From assembly GCA_028286245.1 (NCBI GenBank), contig JAQBRY010000004.1, positions 1 through 64,000 of the forward strand: DNA of 64,000 bases. The letters run 5' to 3'. Position numbers and translations under genes: made by a program. Within the stretch, counting starts at the first letter, position 1. Every line of letters starts with the position of its first letter. This document shows positions 48,967-56,917 of this stretch, piece by piece. The notes beneath the pieces were generated by a model that ran no database searches, had not been told where the DNA came from, and worked only from the letters and a program-made list of their open reading frames with translations. Origin of the DNA: Candidatus Saccharimonadota bacterium (GTDB taxonomy: Bacteria > Patescibacteriota > Saccharimonadia > Saccharimonadales > UBA4665).

Positions 48967-50491
48967 TTTTATATATATCGCATTCGTAACCGTACTAGAC
49001 AAAATAATATGGGCAGTTGATGTTGGCCCGTCGGTACACAAGTTTTTCTTGGCTCCGCAGGTAGGTAACTTCAGAGTCTTTTTGGGGCGAATCCGGGCTG
49101 TTCGCGTTTACAAGTATGCCCTCCGACGTACGCCGGCCTATAGGGACTACATGTCCAAGCAAACGTATAAAGGCCCTAAGATAACTTTTTTCAAAGCAAG
49201 CCTTAACGACGTTCCGGAAATTGATAAAGCTACCTACATTAAAAAATATGTGCTTTCTGACAAGTTAACTGACGGCATCCTGCCAAAGAGCGGCGTTATG
49301 CTCGACGAGTCATCGGGTAGCAGCGGCCGGCCGACGAGCTGGGCCCGCGGCAAAAAGGAACGCCGTTTTACCCGGCGCATCATACAAGTTGCCTTTAAGC
49401 ACCTCATCGAAGATCAAAATCCGATCGTTATTAATACCTTTGCCATGGGTGCCTGGTCCACTGGCTTTAATACCTCACTTAGTCTGCTAGAAATTAGCCG
49501 CGTTAAATCAACTGGCCCAGACTTAACGAAAGTCATAGATACGCTCATAGAACTCGGCCCAGGCTACGACTACGTCATCACCGGCTATCCGCCGTTTCTA
49601 AAGCAGATCGCCGATGACACGAGAGTAGACTTGAGCAAGTATAAAATTTCGTGTATCTACGGCGGCGAAGGTATTAGCGAGCCTATGCGGAAGTCACTAC
49701 TAGAAGTGTTTACCAGTGTAATAGGATCGTACGGTGCCTCGGATTTGGAAATTAATATAGCGCACGAAACTGATTTCACGATTGCCCTCAGGCAAGCCCT
49801 CATAAAAGATGAGTCGCTTCGTACCGCCCTGCTTAAACAAAACCGCGGAATTATACCGATGATATTTCAGTATAACCCCTATGACTATTTGTTTGAGAAC
49901 AACGACAAGGGCGAACTGCTCGTGAGCATTTGCCGGGTAGAAAATCTTAGCCCACGCATTCGGTATAATATCCATGATCTCGGTCACGCCGAAGACTTTT
50001 ACGCCTTTAAGAAAAAACTCAAAGCCCTGCACCGTGATGATTTGCTAAAACTTATTGAGCTTGATTTCGGCGTCCTATTCTATTACGGTCGCAGTGACCT
50101 GTCGGTAGATTATTACGGTGGAGTTGTTGGGCCAGAAGAGATTCGCCAGATCATAAACGACAATGAAGAATATAAGCAGAAGATTGCTAACTTCCGCTTA
50201 ATAAGCTATGAAGATAAAGACCATCAGAAGCACTTACTTATTGCGCTGGAATTAGCAGCCGCAACTGATGTAGACGACGCAGAAAAACAGCGCCTTTTGG
50301 ATATTATTGTCAATCAGCTATTTGTTTTGAACTTAGACTTTAAAGCCGGCTATGACATGGCTAAGTACAAGCCCGAGCTTCAAATATATCAGCCGGGTGA
50401 AGGTATATTCGACGCATCGCACCAAAAGCTAAAGAATGACTATGTCTGGAACATCGACTTCGAGCGGGCAAAAGCCGAAGGCATTGTCTAA
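48959..50491 (+). CDS. adenylate-forming enzyme, PaaK/coenzyme F390 synthetase-like
   Basis: 510 residues from the GTG at 48959, picked because AAGGAG (48948-48953) sits five bases upstream. The ATP loop LDESSGSSGRPTSW, the IYGGEGISEPMR motif and GSYGASDLEINIA match phenylacetate-CoA-ligase and F390-synthetase-type AMP-forming enzymes. It activates a carboxylic acid (or other acid group) as an adenylate; the substrate is unknown. The 8-base overlap with the nitroreductase gene indicates a shared pathway, perhaps modification of a small molecule or cofactor. Confidence 0.82.
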   Translation: MFSFIYIAFVTVLDKIIWAVDVGPSVHKFFLAPQVGNFRVFLGRIRAVRVYKYALRRTPAYRDYMSKQTYKGPKITFFKASLNDVPEIDKATYIKKYVLSDKLTDGILPKSGVMLDESSGSSGRPTSWARGKKERRFTRRIIQVAFKHLIEDQNPIVINTFAMGAWSTGFNTSLSLLEISRVKSTGPDLTKVIDTLIELGPGYDYVITGYPPFLKQIADDTRVDLSKYKISCIYGGEGISEPMRKSLLEVFTSVIGSYGASDLEINIAHETDFTIALRQALIKDESLRTALLKQNRGIIPMIFQYNPYDYLFENNDKGELLVSICRVENLSPRIRYNIHDLGHAEDFYAFKKKLKALHRDDLLKLIELDFGVLFYYGRSDLSVDYYGGVVGPEEIRQIINDNEEYKQKIANFRLISYEDKDHQKHLLIALELAAATDVDDAEKQRLLDIIVNQLFVLNLDFKAGYDMAKYKPELQIYQPGEGIFDASHQKLKNDYVWNIDFERAKAEGIV

Positions 50492-50492
50492 A

Positions 50493-51038
50493 CTATTTAA
50501 GTGCGGGTAACTGGTCTGTGAGTTGGTCCGCGAAGGCCATCATCTCATCCCAGATAGCAGTCTCGGGTAAAATACTTACTTGTTGCTCCGCACCAACCGG
50601 GCGGTATAGGACGACACCCGGATCTTCGTAGACACTGAGTATTAGCTCTGCGCCGGCCAGTTGCAGTGCGGCACCGCCGCCGGCCTGAAGGCCGCCGCTG
50701 AATACTTCGGCAGCGTGGACATGTGTCCCTAAGTCAACGGGACGTTGCCTGAAGCGGGGCCACTTATTAAAGCCAGTTCTATGTGCCACCACCTTAGCCG
50801 CTGTCATATCTTCTGTTTCGCCGCGAGTGACGGCCAGCAAGTCAGAATATGACTCCAACTGGGAATACGCAACGCCAGAAGGCGATAATATACGTCCCGT
50901 CGGTATCCGGTACTCTCGGGGCGCTACCCTATGTGCAAAATCTAAAAAATTATATACAAATGCCTGTCTCTGATTTAATAATGGGCGATTTTCTTCTTGC
51001 TTAAACTCTTCTACTTGTTTGTCGGTAATTTGCATCAT
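50493..51038 (-). CDS. hypothetical protein
   Basis: 181 residues, no recognised family. It opens with a charged helix (ITDKQVEEFKQEENRPLLNQRQAFVYNFLDFAHR) and has a Gly/Ala-rich stretch (FSGGLQAGGGAALQLAG) near residue 120. No signal or membrane segment is clear. It ends one base after the convergent adenylate-forming enzyme gene. Confidence 0.6.
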   Translation of the reverse strand: MMQITDKQVEEFKQEENRPLLNQRQAFVYNFLDFAHRVAPREYRIPTGRILSPSGVAYSQLESYSDLLAVTRGETEDMTAAKVVAHRTGFNKWPRFRQRPVDLGTHVHAAEVFSGGLQAGGGAALQLAGAELILSVYEDPGVVLYRPVGAEQQVSILPETAIWDEMMAFADQLTDQLPALK

Positions 51039-51178
51039 ATTTGCATTGTAATCCTGTTACATGTAAACGCAAGCATGAGTGGTAAAAGGTCGCATATGAC
51101 GTCAGGTGTTACCTACAAGTTAATGGCATGGATACTATGCGGCTTTACGCAGATTTTAAATGGAGCTAGACTGTGACA

Positions 51179-51943
51179 ATGGGTAAAATTACATTGGTGC
51201 TTACGGATATTGACGGAACAATTGTGTCGCTGGGTTTGCATGACCCAACTCCAGCGGTACGTCAGGCCATCAAAGATGTTCAAGATGCCGGGATTCAACT
51301 TACCGCAGCAACCGGTAGACCATACGAGATGACCAAGGATTTGTTTGATGACCTAGGCTTAAAGGGCTTTTCTATCTTTGATGGAGGTGCCACGATACGT
51401 GATATTCAGACGGGCGAATTTGCCTGGCAAAACTGGCTTGAGGTCGACAGACTGAAGGCAATAGCGAATATATTACTACCCTACAGTACCCTAATCGATT
51501 TCTTTCCAACATTTCACGAGGTCTTACCCAAGGATACAAGCACTAACGATATTATTGAAAAGGCTCCCTATGTGTTTGCTTTTGTACGCGCAGAGCATCG
51601 AAGAGAGGTTGAACACCGCTTAGCGGAACTCTCAGACTTATCTCTTCATATCGGACCAGAACGAAAAGACATGCCGGGAGTGTTCGATATTCAGATTACT
51701 GACATAAATTCTGATAAATTTCATGCTACCAATGTGCTCAGGAAAATCGTGCGTAGTAGCAAGGCTGAGACTCTAGCAATCGGTGATAGCACCAACGACC
51801 TGCCATTGTTTCGAAACGCCGGTGTAAAAGTGGCAATGGGGAACGCCATGGACGAGCTTAAGGCTAAAGCCGACTATATCGTTAACGCTCTTGATGAAGA
51901 TGGCTTTGCTGAGGCAATGCATCGTTTTGTACTGACTTCCTAA
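51179..51943 (+). CDS. HAD-superfamily (Cof type) hydrolase
   Basis: 254 residues from the ATG at 51179 (a GTG two codons upstream is possible). LVLTDIDGTI with Asp10 and Asp12 is motif I, ATGRPYE motif II, the Lys region in motif III, and IGDSTNDLPLF motif IV with the metal Asp pair. The large C2B cap between is typical for Cof/YbiV phosphatases acting on sugar or nucleotide phosphates. Cytoplasmic; substrate unknown. Stands alone. Confidence 0.92.
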   Translation: MGKITLVLTDIDGTIVSLGLHDPTPAVRQAIKDVQDAGIQLTAATGRPYEMTKDLFDDLGLKGFSIFDGGATIRDIQTGEFAWQNWLEVDRLKAIANILLPYSTLIDFFPTFHEVLPKDTSTNDIIEKAPYVFAFVRAEHRREVEHRLAELSDLSLHIGPERKDMPGVFDIQITDINSDKFHATNVLRKIVRSSKAETLAIGDSTNDLPLFRNAGVKVAMGNAMDELKAKADYIVNALDEDGFAEAMHRFVLTS

Positions 51944-52030
51944 CTGCAATGTAATTATTGCTGTAAATCAGGCATCTAGTGTGCGGTGAAACCTTTCATC
52001 ACTGTCGCGGCGGAGTGAATATAGCGTTCG

Positions 52031-52056
52031 CCAGGATGGAGAGGGGTACGCGCTGC
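52031..52056 (+). repeat. possible degraded copy of the tRNA-Gln-associated repeat arm
   Basis: CCAGGATGGAG followed by a CGCGCTGC block resembles the left arm of module B at 53365 (GGATGGAG, then GCGCGCTGC) and the tRNA-Gln 3' end. It abuts the end of the 52059 gene. Short and imperfect, so it is only suggestive. Confidence 0.35.
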
Positions 52057-52058
52057 AA

Positions 52059-52532
52059 CTACCTAAGACCGCGGATTTTATTGGCCCGATCCAGACCTCG
52101 GCTCATGGCATCCAAAAGTCGTAACTGTCTTGTCTGATATTTTAGTAGATCTATGCTAGTAGTTGGAACTCTGCACATGTCCGTAACGGCTAAGTGACCT
52201 ATGGCAGGGCAAATTTGCTCAGGTTTAACCTCACGCTTTGCTGCCCGTCTCTCTCGCCAGCGCCTCAATAATCCAGCTTGCTGAATATTTTCTGGCGTGC
52301 TATCTTGGATGACGTCTTGCGGTGTCTGACATTCTTGAACCGCGCGAGACAGTGCCCCGGGAGTAACTTGATTAGCAAAGTCGGCACGAGTTAGGTCCAG
52401 AACATCGCTCATTCCTCCCTGGCTATCGGCCAGCGCTGCGTAACCTCTCTCATCATCAAATGGACGTCCGATGATCTCGCCTACTACGGTGCCTCGATTC
52501 GGGCACCCTTCACACATAAATGCTTCTGTCAT
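52059..52532 (-). CDS. orphan hypothetical protein, cassette gene A
   Basis: 157 residues from the ATG at 52532. CEGCPNRG near the N-terminus and CPAIGHLAVTDMC near residue 115 give four cysteines that could bind a metal. The middle is charged and helical (RRWRERRAAKREVKPE). No known family. It lies 53 bases downstream, in transcription direction, of repeat module A, the same arrangement as the neighbouring gene and module B. Confidence 0.6.
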   Translation of the reverse strand: MTEAFMCEGCPNRGTVVGEIIGRPFDDERGYAALADSQGGMSDVLDLTRADFANQVTPGALSRAVQECQTPQDVIQDSTPENIQQAGLLRRWRERRAAKREVKPEQICPAIGHLAVTDMCRVPTTSIDLLKYQTRQLRLLDAMSRGLDRANKIRGLR

Positions 52533-52584
52533 ATTATTTAAAATAGTACAACTGTAGTAGGTATATGTCAAAATCCGGCGTCTC

Positions 52585-52760
52585 GGGAGGGATGCGCTTC
52601 ACTTCGTTCCGCTTCTCAACTGCGGGGTGCTCGATGTAAGCATCTGCGCGCGTCCCTATTCTACTGAACCCCAATTGGTATGCAATAAGGCTCTAGTCTC
52701 CCTCGATCAAGACAAACACCTACTTGCGCAGGTGCCTTTATCTGGCTGGGTATGGAGGAC
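52585..52760 (-). repeat. repeat module A: palindromic element, hairpin and tRNA 3'-end remnant
   Basis: It has GGGAGGGATGCGC (52585), CTGAACCCC, then CTAGTCTCCCTCGATCAAG (52693-52711) closing an imperfect palindrome, a hairpin CACCT.../AGGTG with T-rich end (~52716-52738), and CTGGCTGGGTATGGAGGAC (52742-52760), which is like the minus-strand tRNA-Gln 3' end read on the plus strand. The same blocks in the same order occur in module B. From GGAGGGATG to TGGCTGGG is 157 bases in both. The inner part also has GTAAGCATCTGCGCGCG, shared with palindromic element 2. Confidence 0.75.
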
Positions 52761-52831
52761 AATAGTGAAACACTCTAAAACATACTCCGATTAAGCTGTA
52801 TATAGATCTCTTCGTTTAGGCTTGCACGCTA

Positions 52832-53317
52832 TTAAATCTTTGCGCCCTTGACCCAGGCAATTTCGTGCGCAATGAAATCGTGCTCGTCAAGTAGACCTGC
52901 GTTATGCGCGACAAGGAGACCGCAACGGACTACTTCTATTTCTTCACCATTAAAGCCAGTAATCGATTCAGGTAGAGGCTTTAGCTCTGGCCTGTAGAAG
53001 CTACATACTGTTATTGACCCGCAATAAAGAGGATTGCCGTACTGGATATCAACCTTGGAAAGCGTTACATGTGACGGATGTTCATAGCTACCAAATGTAT
53101 TTTTAAATAAAACAAAACCCGGCACCAAATATGTTTCAGCACCTATTGCCTCTTCCCAGGCTGTATTATACCGCTTGTCTCTATCCGGATTGTTGAGCTG
53201 AGCACGCATTTTATCTCGATATTTAATATGCAGTCCAGCGCTAACCATCATTTTGCTAATGTCGGCCAAAGTTTTGCGCTGTTCGGTTGTAATTGGGTTA
53301 ATTCGTTCGCCTGCCAT
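52832..53317 (-). CDS. orphan hypothetical protein, cassette gene B
   Basis: 161 residues from the ATG at 53317. Mixed alpha/beta, with GAETYLVPGFVLFKNTFGSYEHPSHVT in the middle (in parts VPGFVLFKNTF, YEHPSHVT) and a long hydrophilic C-terminus. No known family, no signal or membrane segment. It begins 48 bases downstream of repeat module B, close to the tRNA-Gln gene. Confidence 0.6.
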   Translation of the reverse strand: MAGERINPITTEQRKTLADISKMMVSAGLHIKYRDKMRAQLNNPDRDKRYNTAWEEAIGAETYLVPGFVLFKNTFGSYEHPSHVTLSKVDIQYGNPLYCGSITVCSFYRPELKPLPESITGFNGEEIEVVRCGLLVAHNAGLLDEHDFIAHEIAWVKGAKI

Positions 53318-53364
53318 CGTGTAATAAATATATATGTCATGATATGCTGCTGCAAGCATAAGAA

Positions 53365-53496
53365 TTGGGATGGAGGGATGCGCGCTGCGCGCTTTTACGC
53401 AAAGCCATGCTCCGAGCGCGCTCGTGCGCGTGGCTTTGCTCCACCGAACCCCTATGCCTTCGGCATGGGATTCTAGTCCCCCTCCATCCAGCCAAG
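53365..53496 (-). repeat. repeat module B: multi-hairpin palindromic element beside tRNA-Gln
   Basis: The left arm TTGGGATGGAGGGAT (53365-53379) is nearly the same as the tRNA-Gln 3' end in the plus-strand reading; the right arm TCCCCCTCCATCCAGCCAAG (53477-53496) is its inverted copy. Inside are a GCGCGCTGCGCGC hairpin, a perfect GCAAAGCCA/TGGCTTTGC stem, then CCGAACCCC, a TATGCC/GGCAT stem and CTAGTCCCCCTCC. The right arm also pairs with the tRNA 3' end across the terminator hairpin. Homologous to module A with identical 157-base spacing. Confidence 0.8.
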
Positions 53497-53521
53497 CAAA
53501 AACCCGCTCCTACGAGCGGGT
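53497..53521 (-). terminator. Rho-independent terminator of tRNA-Gln
   Basis: An 8-bp stem (ACCCGCTC / GAGCGGGT) with a four-base loop; on the minus strand it is followed by five T. It lies eight bases downstream of the tRNA. Confidence 0.85.
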
Positions 53522-53528
53522 CTTAACT

Positions 53529-53603
53529 TGGCTGGGATGGAGGGATTCGAACCCCCGAATGCCAGTACCAAAAACTGGTGCCTTACCACTTGGCGACATC
53601 CCA
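53529..53603 (-). tRNA. tRNA-Gln (anticodon TTG)
   Basis: 75 bases with CCA encoded. Acceptor stem TGGGATG/CATCCCA, discriminator G, anticodon stem CCAGT/ACTGG around the loop TTTTGGT with anticodon TTG, and T-arm GGGGGTTCGAATCCCTC. This decodes CAA and probably CAG. Its 3' end is repeated in the neighbouring modules. A standard promoter lies upstream and a hairpin terminator downstream. Confidence 0.95.
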
Positions 53604-53664
53604 TTATGGTTGTGGTAGTGTTCAAAGCGTAATGCTTTGGTGAACTTTGCGAGTTCAAGGGGTG

Positions 53665-53693
53665 ATTATATAGGTTTTAGGGCGGAAATCCAA
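53665..53693 (-). promoter_or_regulatory. promoter of tRNA-Gln
   Basis: TTGGAT (-35, 53688-53693), 17-base spacer, TATAAT (-10, 53665-53670). Transcription would start ~55 bases before the tRNA. Confidence 0.65.
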
Positions 53694-53745
53694 GGCTTGT
53701 GGCGGCAAATACGCTGTCTTTATGCTTATGTAGGGCTTGGCTTGG

Positions 53746-53751
53746 TATACT
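53746..53751 (+). promoter_or_regulatory. -10 box, leaderless start at 53758
   Basis: TTGG-TATACT ends six bases before the ATG at 53758; an in-frame ATG seven codons upstream lies before the box and is excluded. Confidence 0.65.
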
Positions 53752-53757
53752 AGCAGT

Positions 53758-55014
53758 ATGTATCAGGACTTTCAGCGTGCGCGACAAACTAGAGAAAGCC
53801 TGTGGCACAGGCGCCGAAAAACCATTATCACAGTTTTTATTCTTATAATTGTTGGGTTAGTGGCATTGCTTGTACTGCGCGCTAGGCACCAGCCTGCCAA
53901 GCCGGCCGTCAATAATACCACGCCGACGGTAGTAAAATCACCGCCCAAAGCCGATCCCGATATAAGTATGCTGCTTACCGGTGACTGGATAGCCCACGAC
54001 TCCCTCAACGCCGCCGCTAAAAAAGCCGATGGCAGCTATGATTACCTGCCACTGGTTAAGGCCTATCAGCCCCTTTTTAAACAAACGGATATTAAATTCT
54101 GTAATGATTCCATTCTTAACGGCGGCCAGGCACTGGGCATTAGTGGCTACCCTAAATTTAATTCACCCACCGAGTTCGTAACGAGTATGGGACAGCTGGG
54201 TTGTAACCTAGTAAATACGGCTTCTAATCACAGCTTTGACTTTACGCAGGCCAACATCGATGCTTCGGTAGACGCTTGGGCCTCGGTCCCAAACATGTTA
54301 GCCGTGGCCGGCGAGAATAAAACGCAGGCCGAACATGACCAGATCCACTACTTTAGCGAAAAAGGCGTTAAGTTTGCCTTCCTGGCATACACCGCCTATT
54401 CCAATACCACGCCTCAGAACTCTTACGGTGTAAATGTCTATAGCCAGGCGGTAGCGGCAGCGCAAATTAAGGAGGCCCGGACCAACGGTGCCCAGATAGT
54501 GATAGTAAGCATGCGCTGGGGAGTTGAGTACTCACCGACTATTAGCGCAGCTCAGACCACAGCAGCCCAGTTCTTAGCCGATCAGGGGGCTAACCTAGTG
54601 CTTGGGCATGGCCCGCACGTTCTGCAGCCGGTTCAGGAGCTTACTGGCACCAGTGGCAATAAAACGCTGGTGTGGTACAGCTTAGGCAACTTTGTAAACA
54701 CCCAGGAGCCACCCGAGACGCTTTTTAACGGCGTAGCTTTCCTAAAGATTGACCCCAAGACACTCGCCATCACCACCACTGGCTTTGTACCCTTTTATAT
54801 GCACTTTGAATGGACGCCCGCCCAGGCAAAGGCCGATGACACCAATGCTCGCACTGCCGTGCAGATGTACCTGTTAGAAAACACCACACAGCAAATGATC
54901 AACGCCCAACAACTGACAACCACAGTAGAGGCCCAAAAACAGCGCCTAACCACCACCCTAAACGCCCGCGGCCAAAACATCCCCCTCCTAACCTCCACCC
55001 AAATCCTCAAATAA
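53758..55014 (+). CDS. CapA family (PGA_cap) membrane-anchored metallophosphatase-like protein
   Basis: 418 residues. A basic N-terminus leads to one membrane helix (~22-42) and a Pro/Thr linker, then the outer CapA domain: MLLTGDWIAHDSL, LGCNLVNTASNHSFDF, VSMRWGVEYSP, VLGHGPHVLQPVQ and VWYSLGNFV, with the Asp, Asn and His residues that bind metal in the calcineurin-like family. The family takes part in poly-gamma-glutamate export or envelope polymer processing. No CapB/CapC is nearby, so the polymer is unknown. Confidence 0.9.
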   Translation: MYQDFQRARQTRESLWHRRRKTIITVFILIIVGLVALLVLRARHQPAKPAVNNTTPTVVKSPPKADPDISMLLTGDWIAHDSLNAAAKKADGSYDYLPLVKAYQPLFKQTDIKFCNDSILNGGQALGISGYPKFNSPTEFVTSMGQLGCNLVNTASNHSFDFTQANIDASVDAWASVPNMLAVAGENKTQAEHDQIHYFSEKGVKFAFLAYTAYSNTTPQNSYGVNVYSQAVAAAQIKEARTNGAQIVIVSMRWGVEYSPTISAAQTTAAQFLADQGANLVLGHGPHVLQPVQELTGTSGNKTLVWYSLGNFVNTQEPPETLFNGVAFLKIDPKTLAITTTGFVPFYMHFEWTPAQAKADDTNARTAVQMYLLENTTQQMINAQQLTTTVEAQKQRLTTTLNARGQNIPLLTSTQILK

Positions 55015-55110
55015 AGTAAGGCGTTCGACGCGACTGTTCCTATAAAATACGGAAGGTCAGGCTTAGAGCAACCGGACCAGCAAAGCTGGCCCGCGTGAAA
55101 CGCCTTCTTT
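55013..55110. repeat. palindromic structured element between convergent genes
   Basis: The outer stem pairs ~18 bases (AAGGCGTT..ACGCG at 55018-55032 with CGCGTGAAACGCCTT at 55092-55106). Two smaller hairpins lie inside, TTCC/GGAA and CCAGCAAAGCTGG. It starts at the capA-like stop and lies before the convergent VanY-like gene, so it may stop transcription from both sides. Sequence unlike elements 1 and 2. Confidence 0.65.
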
Positions 55111-55138
55111 AATTTACTAAAACAGCTGTCTCTAAAGT

Positions 55139-55903
55139 TTAGTAGTCTTTGCCGCCGGTAACGTCGAAGAACTGCTCAAGGGTATCAACGTGAGTGTTGT
55201 GGAGCTCGGTGGAGAGGTCGGTGCCGACGTAGCGCACATGCCAGGGCTCATATTCGTACCCGGTTATAGCTTGATCATTAATGGTGTAGCGAATAATAAA
55301 GCCAAACTTGTAAGCGTTTGCCGCCAGCCAGGTGCCCTCTGGAGTAGCAGAAAAACATTGTTCTAGTTCGCAGGTTTTACTGGCAGGTTCAATATCTGCG
55401 CCCAACCCCGTCTGGTGTTCGCTGTAGCCCGGCCGAGCGCTCTGCGTGTCGGCCGTGGCTTGGCCTTGACTAGCCACGTAGCCGTTATACAAATTAACCT
55501 GGTAGGTGTATGAGCGGTACCCACTGGAAAGCATCAAGTTGAGCCCCTGCTCTTTAGCGGCTGCAAACATGGCCTCTAGGGCTGTGGCGGTTGCCTGTCG
55601 CACTTGCATACTCTCGTTACCCGGTACGCGTAGCGGGATAGTAGGCACTACTAAATCTGCCGGTACGTAATCTTTAGGTACTAACTGGTGTTGCTTATTT
55701 ACTATCACCCAAATACTGGCCGGATCGGTGCGTGAAAACTCAGACTTGTTAAAGCTAGTGGCCGGTTTGGCTGCGGTAGGCGCCGGCTTGGGTGTATTAG
55801 TTGAAGCGGTTGGTGCCTCGGCTGGCTGAGCGAGCAGAAGCATTGCTGCAACGACTAAAATGACAATCAGCGCTAAGGACAGAAGGAGCTTGTGTTTCTT
55901 CAT
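55139..55903 (-). CDS. VanY-like D-Ala-D-Ala carboxypeptidase (peptidase M15B)
   Basis: 254 residues from the ATG at 55903, chosen because TATACT at 55911-55916 leaves seven bases. A signal anchor (LLLSLALIVILVVAAMLLL) and Ala/Pro/Thr linker precede the enzyme domain: SSGYRSYTYQ (substrate Arg), SEHQTGLGADI (zinc His and Asp) and YEPWHVRYVG (catalytic Glu area and zinc His). Acts outside the membrane, removing terminal D-Ala from peptidoglycan stems of its own or of a host cell. Confidence 0.92.
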   Translation of the reverse strand: MKKHKLLLSLALIVILVVAAMLLLAQPAEAPTASTNTPKPAPTAAKPATSFNKSEFSRTDPASIWVIVNKQHQLVPKDYVPADLVVPTIPLRVPGNESMQVRQATATALEAMFAAAKEQGLNLMLSSGYRSYTYQVNLYNGYVASQGQATADTQSARPGYSEHQTGLGADIEPASKTCELEQCFSATPEGTWLAANAYKFGFIIRYTINDQAITGYEYEPWHVRYVGTDLSTELHNTHVDTLEQFFDVTGGKDY

Positions 55904-55910
55904 TACCATT

Positions 55911-55916
55911 AGTATA
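55911..55916 (-). promoter_or_regulatory. -10 box of the VanY-like gene
   Basis: TATACT, seven bases before the chosen ATG at 55903 and one base from the alternative ATG at 55909. Confidence 0.55.
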
Positions 55917-55978
55917 GCCGATTTTAGATAATCTGTGGCGCTCGATGGCAAATTTTGGTACAGTCATAGTAATTATTT

Positions 55979-56917
55979 ATGTCTACAGATCTAGCGAACA
56001 ATCCAGTTGATTACATTGTGCCAATTAATATTAATGGGCTTAAAGGGCGCATGCTTAAATTACCGGCCCCCAAAGGCCGTAGTCGCGAAATCTTGTTTTT
56101 ATACGGCAGTCACTCTAGCTTAGAGCGCATGTTTACGCTGGCCGAAGAGCTTAATGCCTACGGTGCAGTTACCATGCCGGACTGGCCTGGTTTTGGTGGT
56201 ATGGACAGTCTATTTAAAGTTGGAGCTAAGCCCACCATTGATAATATGGCAGATTATTTAGCTACCTTTGTAAAAATGAGCTATCGCCGCCGCCGATTTA
56301 CTATTGTGGGCATGTCGTATGGATTTGCCGTGGCTACCCGCATGCTGCAAAAATATCCGGAAATTGCTGCCAAGGTAGATTTTATTGCCAGCGTGGTCGG
56401 TTTTGCCCACAAAGATGATTTTCATGTCAATAAGCGCACGCTGATTGCGTTTAAAGTGGGCACCGGTGTTCTTAAGCACCGTATCCCGAGCATGATTGCC
56501 AGAGTAGTTATTAACGGCCTCACCGTCGATGCAACCTATAGCTTGATGGCCAACAGGCATAGCAAAATGAAGGGTGCCTCCCGCGAAGAGCGCCGCACAC
56601 GCATAGAATTCGAAAAGATTTTGTGGCGTATAAACGATCTGCGGACTTATTTTTATACGGGATCAACTATGTTTACAATTGACCTCTGTAATTCGGAAGG
56701 CAATGCGCAGGTCAAGGTACCGGTGTACCACGTAGCAGTTAATAATGATCAGTTCTTTAATAATCAGCTTGTTGAACAGCATCTGGCGGTTATCTACTCA
56801 AAAGTGAACATGCTCCATGTAACGCTCACCGCCCACATGCCAACAATTGTTGCCACCGCTGCAGAAGTTGCCCCCTTTATTCCCAAGGAACTGCGTAAAG
56901 CACTGGCTGCAAAATAA
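55979..56917 (+). CDS. alpha/beta-hydrolase
   Basis: 312 residues. EILFLYGSHSSLERMFTLAEEL provides the oxyanion-type region, AVTMPDWPGFGGMDS the following strand, and VGMSYGFAVATR the nucleophile elbow with Ser113 (GxSxG). A His late in the chain (LTAHMPTI) fits the catalytic position. No signal peptide, so cytoplasmic or membrane-associated. Substrate unknown. It lies 30 bases before the first GT4 gene, which has its own promoter. Confidence 0.8.
   Translation: MSTDLANNPVDYIVPININGLKGRMLKLPAPKGRSREILFLYGSHSSLERMFTLAEELNAYGAVTMPDWPGFGGMDSLFKVGAKPTIDNMADYLATFVKMSYRRRRFTIVGMSYGFAVATRMLQKYPEIAAKVDFIASVVGFAHKDDFHVNKRTLIAFKVGTGVLKHRIPSMIARVVINGLTVDATYSLMANRHSKMKGASREERRTRIEFEKILWRINDLRTYFYTGSTMFTIDLCNSEGNAQVKVPVYHVAVNNDQFFNNQLVEQHLAVIYSKVNMLHVTLTAHMPTIVATAAEVAPFIPKELRKALAAK

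Follow-up and report, generated by a model that had tools for sequence, protein, structure and literature searches.

Hairpin modules and single-gene cassettes at tRNA gene 3' ends: candidate integron-like arrays in Saccharibacteria

The tRNA-Gln(TTG) locus

The window, which is the whole stretch of 64,000 nucleotides analysed here (G000:C4:1-64000), belongs to a genome of 1.13 Mb in 4 contigs (G000). The anchor of the locus is a tRNA-Gln (TTG) gene on the minus strand (53529-53603), detected by ARAGORN and by the Rfam tRNA model with 62.5 bits. The final 18 nt of this gene (53529-53546, ATCCCTCCATCCCAGCCA read on the minus strand) constitute the first copy of a direct repeat, called DR1, whose boundary sets its extent. 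Downstream of the tRNA and on the same strand lie module B, a first orphan gene, module A, a second orphan gene and a short third arm.

Module B was delimited by its sequence blocks (53366-53528). It begins immediately 3' of the CCA with a terminator-like hairpin (53478-53528; from sequence and folding, z -8.4), the 3' side of which leads into the acceptor end of the tRNA, copied in inverted orientation (GGCTGGATGGAGGG). A second hairpin (53444-53476), found by folding and family comparison, pairs GAATCCC with GGGGTTC and has the T-arm-like end GGGGTTCGG. The core (53382-53453) reads GTGGAGCAAAGCCACGCGCA, hairpin, GAGCATGGCTTTGC; it is recognised by the covariance model R1 described below with 80.4 bits and by its covariation. 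The module closes with DR2 (53366-53379, ATCCCTCCATCCCA), which contains 14 nt of the tRNA 3' end. In module A (52586-52759), likewise delimited by its sequence blocks, a decayed DR1 (TCCTCCATACCCAGCCA, 52743-52759, from sequence and alignment) stands without a tRNA body, followed by a core (52602-52673, R1 65.3 bits, aligned to that of B) and a decayed DR2 (ATCCCTCC, 52586-52593).

The preliminary description of this DNA had stated that both modules carry the same blocks in the same order and that the last block is the tRNA-Gln 3' end in B and a decayed copy of it in A. Both statements hold: the local alignment of A and B scores 34.5, against a mean of 9.4 and a maximum of 15 in 1,000 dinucleotide shuffles. 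Its spacing of 157 bases between GGAGGGATG and TGGCTGGG is indeed equal in the two modules (52586 to 52743 in A, 53372 to 53529 in B), but this is a coincidence, as the distance from tRNA to core is mostly 63-106 in the family; the idea of a family constant was rejected because the spacing varies among members. Folding as single-stranded DNA bore out the expected structure for B but not for A. Compared with shuffled sequences, module B reached a z-score of -8.4 and a further copy behind tRNA-Gln(CTG) -4.1, whereas module A folded no better than shuffles (-0.45), so that module A looks decayed.

The third arm (52030-52056, minus strand, GCAGCGCGTACCCCTCTCCATCCTGGC) is a probable but weak remnant of a module end with a tRNA 3' end. 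Its proposed relationship stood for the end of module B (1 of 1,000 shuffles as good) but was not significant for the end of module A.

Each of the two orphan genes was identified as an open reading frame on the strand of the tRNA. The first encodes 161 aa from the ATG at 53317 (52832-53317) and the second 157 aa (52059-52532), and neither has a match in Pfam, NCBIfam or PADLOC. Both may be cassette cargo. The preliminary description paired each module with one orphan gene as a cassette. Position, common strand and repeats agree with this, but the right-end motif of the cassettes in relatives (see below), which by eye seemed to be present upstream of module A, was dropped after 1,247 of 2,000 shuffles proved equally good. 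Modules A and B are members of the tRNA-associated family presented in the next section, and likely brought the two genes in.

Anatomy and distribution of the module family

With module A as query, a third copy was found in the same genome directly 3' of tRNA-Gln(CTG), and with module B copies were found in 16 of 99 relatives, behind Ser, Ala, Phe, Gln, Glu, Leu, Tyr, Pro, Met, Trp and Lys tRNAs. The first DNA query included the tRNA end, while the covariance model R1, built later from 24 cores (a core hairpin of ~72 nt), does not; its E-values are rough. R1 detects six copies in G000, where the four besides A and B follow tRNA-Gln(CTG), -Ala, -Leu and -Thr, and 35 in the congener G001 (UBA5145). 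Across the class 67 of 393 genomes are positive and within the family 32 of 93, and in a sample of 287 genomes of the phylum positives occur only within the class. The block pattern first noticed in the window thus belongs to a large family. A contig titled Candidatus Parcubacteria 0813_bin17 (JAHWKM010000021.1, L186) has a module at the same coordinates as contig C13 of G627; the title is probably wrong, and G627 falls in the order of the window genome.

Searches for an affiliation of the module gave little. An Rfam cmscan of positions 50000-56000 with E-values up to 1 returned the tRNA and three microRNA-model matches far below their gathering scores, so a known structured RNA family was discarded. 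In IMG/VR a loose core pattern had three matches, none accompanied by the rest of the module, and a tighter pattern and the cassette right end had none; BLAST against phage and plasmid records gave no match. A phage, virus or plasmid origin was therefore dropped.

Among 107 cores, from loci that were mostly top-scoring matches rather than a random sample, 74 lie within 200 bp (mostly 63-106) 3' of a tRNA end on the same strand, and these tRNAs cover 28 isoacceptors. None of the 107 has an opposite-strand tRNA end within that distance. Most of the remaining cores are located deeper in tandem arrays or came with flanking sequence in which no tRNA is present, and some modules sit 1-9 kb from any tRNA inside arrays. 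Direct repeats of the tRNA 3' part flank the insert at both ends: DR2 is identical to the 3' end of its own tRNA in 18 of 18 positions at 30 of the 74 loci, compared with 0 of 740 pairings with other tRNAs, and its edge is sharp, 18 nt before the CCA end. At four loci (L090, L082, L093, L110) a second terminator is found 3' of DR2, and this is plausibly the tRNA's original one, displaced. Several arrays of G001 have a second conserved block, resembling TTAATTCACAAAAACCCTATCTGTTAGAGGACGGACCTCTGGGTC, downstream of the second tRNA repeat (L104:8543, 11614, 13169 and 17011; L106:7759; L110:11048; L115 near 1800), and this block also occurs without a module.

The preliminary description had read the locus as repeated insertion at the tRNA 3' end, with old end copies left behind. 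The tRNA-specific 18-nt repeats at 28 isoacceptors and the apparently displaced terminators support this reading, as do the turnover at tRNA-Gln in four species and the tandem cassettes in relatives, both reported below. As leftover tRNA ends the repeats alone do not describe the unit, as the copies are present but a covarying core hairpin and tRNA-fitted hairpins belong to it too. Slippage or unequal crossing-over could also duplicate the tRNA 3' region in tandem, and some tRNAs do have the repeats in tandem (L121). Such duplication cannot place one core family at 28 isoacceptors in many genera, however, and we consider it hardly credible.

From the CCA onwards, a module consists of the terminator-like hairpin, a hairpin whose 3' arm has the T-arm-like GGTTCGG, the core, a small hairpin and the tRNA 3'-end copy. 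The core is made up of GAGC.AAGCCACGCGCA, a short stem and GAGCATGGCTnnGC. Over 71 distinct sequences its covariation is 0.431, compared with 0.175 after shuffling and at most 0.09 for slid structures. A covarying hairpin is also what folded recombination sites with mismatched or bulged bases look like, and a role of the core as such a site is putative. In a subset of copies (L074, L106, L107) the arm of the second hairpin is an inverted repeat of the T-arm of the module's own tRNA. T-arm copies of at least 11 nt were found in 8 of 71 comparisons with the own tRNA and in 4 of 710 with others, and inverted ones in 9 of 71 and 3 of 710.

On the tRNA-sense strand the core has 34 G.T pairs vs 8 C.A mismatches (p 7e-5, for sequences that are non-independent and an alignment that was fitted to that strand, which tilts the count). 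This strand, as RNA or single-stranded DNA, seems to be the one in which the core folds, and the excess of G.T could mean that the RNA form is what counts. The module might then be a structured RNA under selection, a 3' trailer of the tRNA transcript that serves processing or termination control or acts as a small RNA, with the repeats joining its fold. Its strong covariation, the G.T preference and the position downstream of tRNAs in the sense direction would suit such an RNA, and so would the finding that four species of the genus have a module at tRNA-Ala. But a terminator stands between the tRNA and the core, array modules lie kilobases from any tRNA, copy numbers range from 3 to 35 in one genus with gene-less modules in tandem, and most genomes of the class lack the module. 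We judge a trailer RNA to be quite unlikely.

The cores are not bound to one tRNA, because their mean identity across genomes is 0.687 at the same tRNA and equally 0.687 at different tRNAs; lineages of cores locked to one tRNA were rejected for the same reason. Within G001, cores at Ser, Leu and Val tRNAs are up to 0.92 identical. The simplest reading of these identities would be movement of cores between tRNAs, with gene conversion between copies as the alternative.

A rival reading is a MITE-like non-autonomous transposon, whose insertion point would always lie between T-loop and CCA end and which would duplicate 18 nt of its target site. Repeats that measure 18 nt whatever the tRNA sequence, a core common to different tRNAs and gene-less units of ~160 bp are consistent with it, and the short inserts nested in some modules show that the modules are not the only small elements here. 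The insert, however, carries tRNA-specific T-arm copies (in the subset above), its terminator suits the CCA end, and no transposase is associated with the module. Single-gene cassettes also go to this site, where the shared end is 6-10 nt long, as expected of tyrosine recombinases. On this evidence a transposon of the MITE type is quite unlikely.

The nested inserts are of ~95 bp (TAACTGAGCGGTTAGCGAAGATATATGCC...GAGAAGCTATAAC) and lie within the core hairpin at L107:4210-4340, L107:817-900, L108:8948-9040 and L021:1573-1710. L115 has a different yet similar insert near 1910-2010. By appearance these inserts are a further small mobile element inside the modules.

Cassettes, turnover and candidate recombinases

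In relatives, single genes are arranged as cassettes whose right end is AGTTSCGAAGTACGTCCACTA followed by a short tRNA-like CCA end. Many cassettes start near AGCATAAGCA; a terminator comes next, then AT-rich DNA resembling a promoter, and the motif with 6-10 nt of tRNA end closes the unit. The units contain a single open reading frame in the tRNA sense and measure ~380-930 bp; one unit has two reading frames. Tandem, mostly single-gene cassettes of one orientation between right ends were found at L106, L115, L184 and L185, a result obtained in relatives, with the window itself standing outside it. The tRNA-Gln(CTG) array of G001 has six copies of the motif in the form AGTTCTAAGTACGTCCACTATCCCCAGCCA between genes, and its tRNA-Asn array has six related copies. 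Modules and cassettes share arrays: at L172, tRNA-Asn is followed by a module, a perfect 18-nt DR2, a one-gene cassette, a right end and the next cassette. Scanning the class for the right-end pattern gave hits in 35 of 383 genomes, compared with one match for a reversed control pattern, and when all of GTDB was scanned for the motif with CCA behind it, 22 stretches were found, nearly all in Saccharibacteria.

Likely cassette cargo in G000 is a YgjV-like membrane protein at tRNA-His. Elsewhere the cargo comprises NUDIX, GNAT, PAS, histidine phosphatase, membrane, orphan and TIGR04255 proteins as well as a type I methylase with its specificity subunit; in UBA5145 two modules at tRNA-Met enclose such a pair (L104:13297-16594).

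The gene content next to these tRNAs turns over between congeners. Based on conserved upstream genes, the tRNA-Gln(TTG) locus is orthologous in four species (G000 to G003). Downstream of the tRNA the DNA differs among G000, G002 and G003, and in G001 it is N-masked: G000 has the two orphan genes and then a HAD hydrolase, G002 a small gene unlike these and a signal-peptidase-like gene, and G003 another gene. The suggested comparison of this locus, made here between species, came out on the side of gene turnover. G000 also has extra DNA separating the module from the next, conserved gene: ~3.4 kb at tRNA-Ala and ~4 kb at tRNA-Leu(TAG) (relative to G001/G002 and G005).

It is common for tyrosine recombinases to act at the 3' end of a tRNA gene and to restore it. 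The arrays, those of the richest carriers included, have no recombinase gene linked to them, and the modules (~160-180 bp) and the cassettes examined encode no integrase, the latter encoding other proteins. For the window, the absence of a nearby recombinase had been noted correctly, as the single tyrosine recombinase of G000 sits outside it. The sole serine-recombinase match of G000 (G000:C2:76108-76539) has four internal TAG stops and is probably a pseudogene. Each of the module-rich genomes G001, G013, G007 and G010 codes for a single tyrosine recombinase and no serine recombinase. That of G001 fits XerC and XerD best (257 and 248 bits), and its integron-integrase score is 129 against a cut-off of 265. 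A dedicated integrase was discarded, since the richest carriers have none and additional tyrosine recombinases are found in module-poor genomes (G005, G048). Integrases from elsewhere (L194-L205) have neither a module nor a right-end motif nearby. By elimination only, an XerC/D-like housekeeping enzyme is the leading candidate for the trans-acting recombinase. Equally possible are a helper that has since been lost and an enzyme that belongs to neither of the two Pfam families examined.

In G048, a restriction-modification island that encodes a tyrosine recombinase of 311 aa adjoins a module at a tRNA-Lys-like end (L193:5411-12840, contig C31). It could be a helper or an ordinary neighbour.

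The arrays might also be fossils, which is a variant of the insertion reading and overlaps with it in confidence: remnants of tRNA-integrating elements that have lost their integrases and are now inactive. This would agree with the missing linked integrase, with the decay of module A and the third arm, and with the island of L193, in which a tyrosine recombinase does stand beside a module. Perfect 18/18 repeats and intact covarying cores at many loci speak against inactivity, as do cargo that differs among congeners and a single core family over 28 isoacceptors. We hold fossil arrays to be unlikely.

Proposed mechanism and comparison with known systems

The reading that we prefer, and consider probable, is that units are inserted site-specifically at tRNA 3' ends, leave the old tails behind and work in an integron-like manner. 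Two kinds of units would use one site for recombination at the 3' end of the tRNA gene. The gene-less module of ~160-180 bp would bring the terminator hairpin, the T-arm-like hairpin, the covarying core, the small hairpin and the 18-nt repeat, which corresponds to the T-stem, acceptor strand and CCA of the tRNA. The single-gene cassette would run from its left end near AGCATAAGCA through the terminator, the promoter-like AT-rich stretch and the gene to the right end AGTTSCGAAGTACGTCCACTA with the CCA end. Every insertion would restore the tRNA 3' end and supply a new terminator, while older units and their leftover tails would be pushed downstream, so that the array grows from the tRNA, which would serve as the platform as in integron function. 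From the arrangement of these units we infer that the process is recombination, that arrays grow at the tRNA side and that the recombinase acts in trans. Several points count against the insertion reading. The arrays lack a linked recombinase gene, and the sole tyrosine recombinase of G001, with its 35 modules, is of the Xer type. One core has T-arm copies and repeats on its flanks that match many different tRNAs, a fit for which the reading does not account. The G.T excess in the core could point to a role as RNA, and in the window the right-end motif is not significant beside module A. More tentatively, we propose that genes are captured through many tRNA platforms, with one recombinase in trans, possibly the housekeeping Xer, inserting both the cassettes and a module refitted to each tRNA, in effect a distributed integron.

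Saccharibacteria are ultra-small, host-dependent bacteria with genomes of ~1 Mb, and to our knowledge their gene gain is poorly known. If the preferred reading is true, it would account for the origin of part of their accessory gene set (restriction-modification, NUDIX, acetyltransferases, orphans), and nature would have found a second answer to the problem that integrons solve. The reading makes two questions testable, namely whether one Xer-type recombinase can serve many tRNA sites and how a shared core is fitted to each tRNA. With the end motifs and the covariance model, arrays can be mapped in other genomes.

Clusters of cassettes that lack an integrase are called CALINs. With integrons and CALINs the arrays share tandem, mostly single-gene cassettes in one orientation with conserved ends resembling recombination sites, a cargo of orphan, NUDIX and GNAT proteins, a putative folded site and an array without a linked integrase (PMC8876359, PMC11389934). 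They differ in their anchor, which is a tRNA 3' end here and attI there, and in that each cassette seems to bring a terminator and a promoter-like stretch of its own. In integrons the bottom strand of attC is the one used (PMC8876359), while the core here, if it folds, favours the tRNA-sense strand. An IntI-type tyrosine recombinase next to attI was not found in G000 or G001, and module-rich carriers have Xer-type enzymes only. The palindromes were initially called reminiscent of attC sites without being the same, which is accurate: the core site GTTRRRY of attC and attI is absent from the right end AGTTSCGAAGTACGTCCACTA, which reads GTTGCGA and GTTCGAA.

Islands that integrate at tRNAs, tycheposons included, have the attB of a tyrosine recombinase between the T-loop and the 3' end of the tRNA. 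Insertion at the 3' end, restoration of the tRNA, the leftover end copy and tandem accretion are common to both. The units described here are different in that they measure only ~0.16-0.9 kb, are gene-less or have mostly one gene and contain no internal integrase, and in that one core family serves 28 isoacceptors and occupies most of the examined tRNA loci in UBA5145. MITEs and REPINs are likewise short, gene-less, hairpin-rich, multicopy and non-autonomous-looking, but the module is placed at tRNA 3' ends with tRNA-specific 18-nt repeats and internal tRNA-fitted arms. Xer-exploiting elements of the IMEX type would, like these units, rely on an XerC/D-like recombinase of the host, which for our arrays is suggested by elimination; IMEX-type elements use dif, and no dif-like site was identified here.

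The literature searched, to which most subscription journals and preprints did not belong, holds no description of such arrays, which is weak evidence for novelty. By the definitions of both, the tRNA-anchored modules and cassettes are neither an integron nor an ordinary tRNA-integrated island, and they appear to work like both. With moderate confidence, we regard tRNA-anchored cassette arrays as a new kind of system.
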